Below, piece after piece: positions 6,220 to 8,546 of a DNA stretch of 64,000 bases. A model generated the notes under the pieces. It was not told the origin of the DNA and did no database searches. It saw only the letters and a list, made by a program, of their open reading frames with translations. A program made the position numbers and the translations under genes. The stretch is taken from the NCBI GenBank assembly GCA_943788755.1, contig CALSRM010000003.1, positions 1,240,001-1,304,000 of the forward strand, written 5' to 3'. Source of the DNA: an uncultured Flavobacteriales bacterium. GTDB lineage: Bacteria > Bacteroidota > Bacteroidia > Flavobacteriales_D > Parvicellaceae. Positions within the stretch are counted from its first letter, which is position 1, and each line of letters begins with the position of its first letter.

Positions 6220-6281
6220 TATTACCATTCTTCCGGTAAAGTCTTTATTCAAAATTAGTGTCGGATTGGATTAAATCTTTA

Positions 6282-6303
6282 ACTTTGGGTAACAAAGTAC
6301 TTT
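6282..6303. promoter_or_regulatory. Operator/promoter-like motif, copy 1
   Basis: ACTTTG, four variable bases (GGTA), then ACAAAGTACTTT. It contains the palindrome AAAGTACTTT and, overlapping upstream, a TAACTTTG -7-like box. It starts 35 bases before the ATG of the membrane-protein gene. A second copy differing at three bases lies at 7299-7320, just beyond the winged-helix gene. It is a plausible self-regulatory site for that regulator. Confidence 0.5.
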
Positions 6304-6316
6304 TAATCGAATTTTT

Positions 6317-6976
6317 ATGACTAAAAAAGAAGAACAATTAGGGCATTTATCCGAGATAAAAAACATGATGGAAAAATCATCTCGGTTTTTATCATTAAGT
6401 GGGTTAACAGGTATATTTGCGGGGATATATGCTCTGGTAGGCGCATACTTAGTTTATAGTGACTTTAACATTATATCTTCTGATGCTGCTAGCGTTACTT
6501 ACTCTGAATTTATTAAAACCGCCAATTCTGGAACCGATTCGGTAATTCTGAAAATTCAATCACTATTTACCATAGGAGCAATTGTTTTGGTGTTATCGCT
6601 TGTTACAGGTTATATATTTACAAGTAGAAAGGCAAAGAAGCAAAATTTAAATGTTTGGGACAGTACCACCAAAAGAATGGTTGTTAGTCTTTCTATTCCC
6701 CTAATTGCTGGCGGCATATTTTGTTTAATTTTAATTAAGCACGAAGTGGTAGGTTTAATTGCTCCTGCAACCCTTATTTTTTACGGACTAGCATTGTTAA
6801 ATGCAAGTAAGTACACATTTAACGATATTAAATATTTAGGGGTTTTGGAAATTGTTTTAGGTTTAGTTTCTGCATATTATATAGGAAGAGGTCTTCTTTT
6901 TTGGGCAGTTGGATTTGGTATTCTTCATATCGTATATGGAACTGTAATGTATTATAGATACGATCAGAACAAATAG
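6317..6976 (+). CDS. Unknown integral membrane protein partnered with a winged-helix regulator
   Basis: 219 residues, not recognised as a named family. It starts with a short charged segment (KKEEQLGHLSEIKNMMEKSS). About six hydrophobic segments follow, near residues 27-47, 82-102, 125-143, 146-165, 175-190 and 194-212. The stop codon is only 8 bases before the winged-helix gene, so the two form an operon. The pair resembles the common arrangement of a small ArsR/HTH_34-type repressor with a membrane protein whose transcription it controls. What is sensed or moved cannot be told from the sequence. Confidence 0.8.
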   Translation: MTKKEEQLGHLSEIKNMMEKSSRFLSLSGLTGIFAGIYALVGAYLVYSDFNIISSDAASVTYSEFIKTANSGTDSVILKIQSLFTIGAIVLVLSLVTGYIFTSRKAKKQNLNVWDSTTKRMVVSLSIPLIAGGIFCLILIKHEVVGLIAPATLIFYGLALLNASKYTFNDIKYLGVLEIVLGLVSAYYIGRGLLFWAVGFGILHIVYGTVMYYRYDQNK

Positions 6977-6984
6977 TAATTTCG

Positions 6985-7278
6985 GTGCAAGGGTTTAATC
7001 AATTAAATAAAGCTTTTGATAGTCGTGTAAGATTAGGTCTTATGTCTATCCTGGTTGTGAATGATTGGGTTAGTTATAAAGAGATAAAAGAAAACCTCAG
7101 CCTAACAGACGGTAATTTGGCAAGTCATGTCTCATCATTAGAGAGAATTAAATACATAGAGATAAAAAAACAGTTTGTTGGAAAGAAACCGCAAACTTCC
7201 TATAAAGCTACTAAATCGGGGAGAAAAGCGTTTGCTGACCATATAGATGGATTAGAAAAGATACTGAAAAGACAATAA
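6985..7278 (+). CDS. Winged-helix DNA-binding transcriptional regulator (HTH_34-like)
   Basis: 97 residues with a GTG start 8 bases after the upstream stop. The sequence FDSRVRLGLMSILVV, then YKEIKENLSLTDGNLASHVSSLE and KKPQTSYKATKSGRKAF reads as a MarR/ArsR-like winged helix (helix 1, recognition helix, wing), the PF13601-type transcriptional regulator. No metal-binding cysteines or ligand domain are visible. It probably acts as a dimer on the palindromic motif that occurs before the operon and right after this gene. A membrane protein and a repressor in one transcript suggest autoregulation. Confidence 0.85.
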   Translation: MQGFNQLNKAFDSRVRLGLMSILVVNDWVSYKEIKENLSLTDGNLASHVSSLERIKYIEIKKQFVGKKPQTSYKATKSGRKAFADHIDGLEKILKRQ

Positions 7279-7298
7279 TTTTTTTTATTTATGTTTAA

Positions 7299-7320
7299 AC
7301 TTTGAAAAACAAAGTACTTT
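7299..7320. promoter_or_regulatory. Operator/promoter-like motif, copy 2
   Basis: ACTTTG, AAAA, then ACAAAGTACTTT; only three of 22 bases differ from the copy at 6282-6303. The core extends to the perfect 14-base palindrome ACAAAGTACTTTGT. It lies 20 bases after the winged-helix gene, and no open gene follows for more than 300 bases. Confidence 0.5.
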
Positions 7321-7637
7321 GTAAATTATTAATCTAGGGAAATATCACATGTATCTTAGATTTTTTAGTAGAATATTTCTCACCGAAGGTAATTAACATC
7401 TTTTGAAAAAATGATTAGTATATTGAACTCACGTTAGTTATTGGATACCGAATTGTTTCAAGAATTGTCAAAAAAAAAGCTGACAGATCAAAGCTGATTG
7501 ATATTCCCCTCAATTCATCCATAAATAAAGGTAATAATCTCATTTCGAACATATTTATTTAAGAGAATAGTAAAAAACCCTTACTATTATTAAAATATTT
7601 CTATTTTTGCTGAATAGGAACATTCAAAAATCAAGAA
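7321..7637. other. Non-coding stretch after the second operator-like motif
   Basis: No credible gene: the longest reading frames here are under 25 codons. It holds an inverted repeat AATAGTAA/TTACTATT at 7565-7588 and a TATTTTTG -7-like box at 7602-7609, placed about right to start transcription of the lipoprotein gene at 7638. The -33 element is not evident. It may be the remains of a lost target gene of the winged-helix regulator. Confidence 0.4.
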
Positions 7638-8546
7638 ATGAAAAAAAATATACTTAAATGGAATCTAATAGCCTTAATCGGCGTGTTAATTGGTTTTTCA
7701 AGTTGCGGGGAAGAGATTAGTGTAGAAAAGGAAATAGAAAAGGAAATAGAAAAGGAAATAGTTCTGGATATGCCAGAATTAGATCCAGATATGGCTTATT
7801 CAGTTCCAACTCCTAATGAGTTGTTTGCAGTAATAAAAGAAACAGGTGTGTCATATGATGGAACGATTTTAAATTTACCTGTTAATAGTGAGAAGTATTC
7901 CACTAAAAAAATCCAAGCTCTTAATTTTGGTGTTTATTTTGCTGATTTGGCTTTTGCTAGTAGCTTTGAAGAAAATGCTTCAATTCTGAGTTATTTTGCT
8001 ATAATTAAAGTTTTAAGTGATGAGCTAGGAATCTCCAATGCGTTGGATGCAGCGATTTACGAAAAAGTTGAAATCAATCTTGAAAATGATGATTCTGACT
8101 CTTTATTGTTTCTTTCAAATGACACTTATTTTCAAGCGTATTCTTATTTAGAAGACAATGAAAGAGGCTCGACTTTGGCATTAATTGTGCTAGGAGGGTG
8201 GATTGAAAGTTTATATATAATGACCAACCTAGGAGAGTATGAAGAAGGGAGTAATTTAGTAGCTCGAATCGGAGAACAAAAACTTACCATTGGAAATTTA
8301 ATGGGGTTTATGATGAAATACCAAGACGATTCAAATGTTGCTGAAGTAATGGAAGAATTAGCAGACATTGAAGAATTATTTTGGAGTTTTGAAGAGGAAG
8401 AAGGTGATGATGTTTCAACCTCACAAGAAGATGATGTATATGTTCTTTCAGGGGGGGCTACAATTATGGTTTCTGCAGAACAATATGAAAAATTAAAAGA
8501 ATTAGTTTCTAAATTAAGAAACGAGATAATTGAAGGAGAGCTTTAA
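7638..8546 (+). CDS. Unknown exported lipoprotein
   Basis: 302 residues with a lipoprotein signal ending IGFSSCGEE (Cys near 24). Directly after the cysteine a 12-base tandem repeat encodes EKEIEKEIEKEI, a charged spacer. The rest is mostly helical and acidic (for example SFEEEEGDDVSTSQEDD near residue 252) with no recognised motif or enzyme signature. The 17-base gap to the next gene suggests the two exported proteins are co-transcribed. Orthologues are likely restricted to related Flavobacteriales. Confidence 0.8.
   Translation: MKKNILKWNLIALIGVLIGFSSCGEEISVEKEIEKEIEKEIVLDMPELDPDMAYSVPTPNELFAVIKETGVSYDGTILNLPVNSEKYSTKKIQALNFGVYFADLAFASSFEENASILSYFAIIKVLSDELGISNALDAAIYEKVEINLENDDSDSLLFLSNDTYFQAYSYLEDNERGSTLALIVLGGWIESLYIMTNLGEYEEGSNLVARIGEQKLTIGNLMGFMMKYQDDSNVAEVMEELADIEELFWSFEEEEGDDVSTSQEDDVYVLSGGATIMVSAEQYEKLKELVSKLRNEIIEGEL

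Follow-up and report, generated by a model that had tools for sequence, protein, structure and literature searches.

A putative operator at both ends of an HTH_34 regulator and membrane protein operon recurs across Bacteroidota

Passages of a report on Listeria (PMC6624303) describe LltR, a PadR-like repressor, as encoded together with the multi-pass membrane protein lmo0600 (DUF1700) in one autoregulated operon. A second kind of pairing, the HAAS-PadR-like wHTH dyads, has been linked to envelope stress, and part of the account in PMC11237479 proposes that the membrane-anchored partner relays a membrane signal to the stand-alone factor. We analysed a window of 64,000 nucleotides from an uncultured Flavobacteriales bacterium (family Parvicellaceae) in which genes for an integral membrane protein and a winged-helix regulator are flanked by two copies of a 22-bp motif. 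As far as those passages describe them, the Listeria pair resembles this locus in that a single operon encodes a small winged-helix regulator as well as an integral membrane protein, with autoregulation that is here predicted, and the HAAS-PadR dyads resemble it in that a stand-alone winged-helix factor adjoins a membrane protein gene, the relay role being one that we infer. Unlike LltR, the regulator belongs to HTH_34 and falls below the Pfam cut-off for the PadR family PF03551 (15.5 against 27 bits); unlike lmo0600, the membrane protein matches no DUF1700, and the phylum differs. In a comparison with Pfam, no HAAS-type domain (DUF1700/DUF1048/DUF1129 like, with the GxP motif) was matched in the membrane protein at E up to 0.1. 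The present system goes beyond the HAAS-PadR dyads in that operator and regulon can be read from it. The nearest solved relative of the regulator, by sequence (profile, E = 5.3e-11) and by fold, is PH1061 of Pyrococcus horikoshii (PDB 1ub9), an entry titled transcriptional regulator homologue; the likeness is one of sequence and fold. In outline the predicted system belongs to a known kind, that of small winged-helix autorepressors paired with membrane partners.

The membrane protein, the proposed partner or sensor, has 219 residues and is encoded at 6317-6976 on the forward strand. Its AlphaFold model (pLDDT 87.7) has an N-terminal helix followed by long, probably membrane-spanning helices, and the protein contains a conserved IKNMMEKSSRFLSLSGL segment. 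Seventeen columns are invariant in an alignment of 38 members, and the N-terminal segment is among the parts best conserved throughout the phylum, a pattern that would agree with its contacting the regulator. No Pfam family scored above cut-off, and Foldseek returned no match to the fold at E <= 0.001. Kinship with TMEM45A was considered and rejected: the VIA-align score (Z 8.8, rmsd 5.4 over 169 residues) falls in the range that the tool gives for helical bundles by common arrangement, and we therefore make no family claim for this protein. The regulator gene (6985-7278, forward strand) begins with GTG and encodes a proposed operator-binding repressor of 97 residues, which matches HTH_34 (PF13601) at 101.3 bits (cut-off 27) over domain positions 1-80 of 80 and is the only PF13601 match found in its genome. 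A structural model (pLDDT 93.2) has the helices and two-strand wing of the winged-helix fold; 1ub9 is its best Foldseek match in the PDB, and PadR structures are among the nearest folds. The segment TDGNLASH, the expected recognition helix, is invariant in an 11-member alignment (A1).

An orthologue of the regulator was found in 28 of the 39 genomes that form our sample of the window's family. A scan of the regulator alignment against one genome per species gave at least 80 loci, called the named loci below; those among the matches listed include loci from Chryseobacterium, Elizabethkingia, Flavobacterium, Hymenobacter, Rufibacter, Niabella, Dyadobacter and Saprospiraceae, and a few from the window's own family. 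The membrane gene lies at most 80 nt from the HTH gene in 28 family loci, and the gap in 78 named loci among the matches listed is mostly about 100 nt or less, with some of 450-700 nt.

Both copies of the motif are exact instances of ACTTTG-N5-CAAAGT-ACTTT on the forward strand, at 6282-6303 and 7299-7320, which bears out the duplication recorded in the initial annotation. Putative operator 1 comprises the half-sites ACTTTG (6282-6287) and CAAAGT (6293-6298) and the third element ACTTT (6299-6303); in putative operator 2 the same elements lie at 7299-7304, 7310-7315 and 7316-7320. The distances given earlier are also correct, with the membrane gene starting at 6317, 35 nt past copy 1, and the regulator gene ending at 7278, 20 nt before copy 2. 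With up to three mismatches allowed, the window contains two matches against 0.12 expected, a number that none of 100 shuffles attained. The pattern as first defined matched twice in the 3.17-Mb genome, at the two sites of the window. That definition, which placed an 'A' before CAAAGT, was too long: the 'A' lies outside the motif, whose conserved core is the 6+6 dyad ACTTTG-N5-CAAAGT; comparison of the named loci and of the wza sites described below indicates that a third element [A/T]CTTT comes next. The sequence AAAGTACTTT, previously taken as the core, is instead the right half-site together with the third element. The dyad has three exact sites in the genome, the third on the minus strand (G000:C3:1561384-1561405). 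At up to two mismatches there were 227 sites compared to 278 for the reversed control; since this is no excess, the signal is confined to exact and near-exact sites. A larger regulon in this genome was rejected, sites with up to two mismatches being at background level.

The position of the site relative to the promoter is conserved. Part of PMC7366714 gives TAnnTTTG as the -7 element of housekeeping promoters in Bacteroidota. A box of this form, TAACTTTG (6280-6287, forward strand), overlaps the left half of operator 1. Copy 2 has AAACTTTG in the equivalent position. In the family, all 28 loci with the regulator have the dyad 24-36 nt upstream of the orthologous membrane gene (25 exact, three with one mismatch), and in every one of them the left half-site lies within a T(A/T)ACTTTG box, six bases being common to both. 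A dyad search of all 39 family genomes gave 59 exact sites (forward columns summed), compared to 13 for the reversed pattern. Among the matches listed, a dyad with no more than one mismatch precedes the regulator gene by 450-1500 bp in 79 of 80 named loci (69 exact), the sole miss being a Dyadobacter locus (L167); three control half-site words gave one hit in 240 scans. Within this set, 78 of the 79 dyads stand 24-37 nt before the membrane gene, TA occupies -2,-1 in 60 and T occupies -2 in 76. The search for the motif before orthologous operons in other Flavobacteriia, which the initial annotation had recommended, was strongly positive in both samples, and such sites extend past the class to Hymenobacter, Rufibacter, Niabella and Saprospiraceae. 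Over 146 sites in the named loci among the matches listed, for which one mismatch was permitted anywhere, all changes hit the outermost base of the half-sites; the third element reads CTTT in 69 of the 79 upstream and 67 of the 67 downstream sites. In each of nine named genomes searched whole, between two and five exact dyads occurred, and two or more of these shared a contig, about 1-1.7 kb apart.

The overlap of site 1 with the -7 promoter box makes autorepression the most plausible reading. An HTH_34 dimer is predicted to bind the dyad, and at copy 1 it would cover the -7 box and turn off the membrane protein and regulator operon, forming a negative feedback loop. We consider it very probable that the HTH_34 regulator uses the 22-bp motif as its operator, acting in autorepression, that copy 2 controls a unit containing DUF4153, and that wza has been added in most of the family. 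Sequence comparison documents the conserved site, its position on the -7 box and its coupling to the regulator operon, DUF4153 and wza; repression with negative feedback is what the site position and the PadR/MarR/ArsR relatives suggest. It is unlikely, in our judgement, that the HTH_34 protein activates or switches between activation and repression. An activator could be accommodated at wza, where a number of genera have another TAnnTTTG-like box downstream of the site and near the start codon, but in the operon that encodes the regulator the -7 box includes the left half-site, a position that normally means exclusion of RNA polymerase, and characterised regulators of the related PadR, MarR and ArsR folds are mostly repressors. 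We give very little credence to a motif that works as an RNA hairpin (a terminator or riboswitch-like element) rather than as a DNA operator. Although ACUUUG-N5-CAAAGU could form a 6-bp hairpin, there is no covariation: the inner five pairs are fixed in 146 of 146 sites among the matches listed and the outer pair is never G-C, which disfavours RNA pairing. In addition, a search of Rfam found nothing at E up to 1, site 2 comes after a T-run and not before it, and the left half of site 1, since it overlaps the -7 box, precedes the expected transcript start. Autorepression through a DNA operator is the reading followed below.

A phylum-wide draw comprised 99 genomes of at least 90% completeness. 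A strong match to the membrane protein was present in 33 genomes (weak matches in G057, G060 and G081 were left uncounted), and the exact extended site ACTTTGN5CAAAGTNCTTT was present in 26, at 46 sites; the reversed pattern had none. Both occurred in 24 genomes, the membrane gene alone in nine, the site alone in two and neither in 64 (Fisher p = 1.6e-13), so that, where the membrane gene is present, 24 of 33 genomes had the exact extended site, compared to 2 of 66 where it is not. Inside the operon lie 33 of the 46 sites, all on the operon's strand, 16 before the membrane gene and 17 after it. One of the two site-only genomes (G140) carries a divergent membrane gene and an HTH_34 gene immediately behind the site. 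Counting against the operator reading are the nine of 33 genomes that have the membrane gene and lack the extended site in this search for exact matches, the 13 of 46 sites outside the operon window, whose targets are just partly recurrent, and the background level of sites with up to two mismatches in the genome that contains the locus.

Among the matches listed, a second dyad with at most one mismatch lies within 150 bp past the regulator stop in 67 of 80 named loci (58 exact), compared to 0 of 240 control scans; of the 13 loci without it, two (L170 and L172) end inside the scanned 150 bp and one (L125) has an exact dyad at +308. In the same set, where site 2 is present, a DUF4153-like gene follows at no more than 3.5 kb in 64 of 67 loci; where site 2 is absent, such a gene was found in 4 of 13. 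In the family, Pfam confirmed DUF4153 behind the site in G028, G031 and G036, and in G028 the unit continues with DUF1361 and DAGK-type genes. PF13687, searched in 16 family genomes, was matched in these three only and had no match in G000-G003. Behind the regulator of genera g3, g4 and g6, the site and the DUF4153 gene are both absent. Copy 2 would be the control site of a second unit, one that usually starts with or soon reaches the gene for the DUF4153 integral membrane protein, and in the window's genus this gene would be gone and copy 2 left alone. No DUF4153 match was found in the window, where a gene-free stretch (7321-7637, forward strand) occupies the place at which relatives have the DUF4153 gene. 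The conjecture that a target gene had been lost after copy 2 is supported by these results, DUF4153 being usual there and absent from the window's genome and from three congeners; loss is the simplest reading because most other genomes carry site and DUF4153 gene together.

Whether copy 2 in the window's genus is now a decaying relic with no present role, which would be compatible with the main explanation, we regard as evenly balanced. The absent DUF4153 gene and the one and two mismatches in the copies of two congeners speak for decay, but the window's own copy is intact, and in three genomes of the genus the half-sites, third element and T-run of copy 2 can be aligned while the spacer and the stretch beyond cannot. 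The T-run (7279-7286, forward strand) lies directly past the regulator stop codon, before operator 2, and is retained in the window's genus. In 67 named loci among the matches listed it covers -15..-9 of site 2 with 90-100% conservation, and about 8 bases separate it from the site there, compared to 12 in the window; folding of three examples gave no terminator hairpin. The gene at 7638 was considered as a new target of copy 2. A -7-like box, TATTTTTG (7602-7609, forward strand), stands 28 nt before it in a block conserved in three congeners, suggesting that the gene has its own promoter; because of this box and the distance of the block from copy 2, such a target is not favoured. Looping between the copies was not supported either, as genomes that have both sites place them anywhere between about 950 and 1600 bp apart, with no fixed spacing.

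The third exact site of the window's genome precedes a wza-like gene, which is followed by a wzc-like gene. The identity of the former is given by a match to Poly_export (PF02563) in an orthologue (L094). A site lies at most 150 nt upstream of the aligned wza start in 17 of 24 family orthologues, 15 of them exact; this set extends to E = 1.7e-39 and excludes second fragments and a weaker match (L208), and three weaker wza matches that were scanned had no site. In most of the family the operator would thus also have been placed before the wza-like/wzc polysaccharide-export operon. The wza site is absent in six genomes of genus g8 and in the single genome of g5. The g5 genome lacks the regulator as well; genus g8 has the regulator without the wza site, which counts against the operator reading, as does genus g2, where G006 and G007 have the wza site and HTH_34 was not found in four incomplete genomes. 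The g2 pattern would also suit a different transcription factor binding the dyad, with the HTH_34 protein as a passenger target. We think this improbable, given that the sites flank the regulator gene and cluster in the operon phylum-wide (33 of 46), that the expected recognition helix TDGNLASH is invariant where the operator is invariant, and that regulator and wza site are missing together in g5. We therefore retain the HTH_34 protein as the likely binder. The wza-like gene itself is frameshifted in G000, G002 and G003, at positions that are not all alike (L087, at G000:C3:1557000-1567000, L078 and L079); wzc is whole in G002 and fragmented in G000 and G003. These breaks may be either real decay or assembly errors.

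The co-encoded membrane protein would most likely report the state of the membrane to the regulator, for example by holding or releasing it. The pairing of the genes suggests this role, which resembles that proposed for HAAS-PadR dyads and is in line with the PadR operons of Listeria. More broadly, and tentatively, with the balance tipped slightly against it, the locus may represent an undescribed form of membrane-to-gene signalling through much of Bacteroidota, in which a multi-pass protein controls an HTH_34 repressor, the operator (dyad and third element, at both operon ends) is kept nearly unchanged, and new targets are added by operator placement. Within the open-licence literature the HTH_34 family, its operator and its regulon appear to be undescribed: no paper there names PF13601 or HTH_34, nothing pairs DUF4153 with a winged helix, and papers on DUF4153 alone or on PH1061 are unrelated by title (most subscription journals and regulon databases fall outside this scope). 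Of the motif strings, only TACTTTGTA occurs among the matches listed, in papers unrelated by title. Passages of a Zunongwangia exopolysaccharide paper (PMC4332637) discuss LacI and not an HTH_34 regulator.

To our knowledge, transcription factors with a known operator are few in Bacteroidota by comparison with Proteobacteria. For this regulator family, the likely operator, promoter position and recurrent targets (the own operon, the DUF4153 gene, a small membrane protein and polysaccharide export) are predictable in bacteria that are easy to grow, e.g. Flavobacterium johnsoniae, and the scheme would provide a first functional context for DUF4153, DUF1361 and the 219-residue partner.

The theme of the predicted regulon is integral membrane and envelope proteins. 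In the phylum draw, G049, G096 and G116 have an extra site before a membrane protein with the pattern MQFT.EV.W...DF. Small proteins resembling this type follow site 2 in Chryseobacterium-like loci and were found by tblastn at 11 of 67 site-2 loci among the matches listed. A family of membrane proteins of about 96 residues recurs behind the operator in several Bacteroidota genera (L284, L277, L173 and L119, with a longer version in L267); four were compared with Pfam and had no match above cut-off. Seven genomes of the family (G013, G021, G022, G025, G028, G033 and G038) have exact sites within open frames, which were taken as chance. At L061 (G016:C8:19620), an exact dyad extended by ACTTTG sits between a divergent pair of genes, of which one resembles a glycosyltransferase gene at its start, which hints at a further polysaccharide target, and at L273 (G072:C25) an extended site lies about 12 nt before a gene for a Peptidase_C92 (YiiX-like amidase) protein, possibly another envelope target. 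At the wza genes of L193, L196, L197, L199 and others, the third element reads TCTTTG and the same genera have a TAnnTTTG-like box only about 4-5 nt before the ATG, an arrangement in which the third element might also serve as a -33 box and the transcript would have almost no leader.
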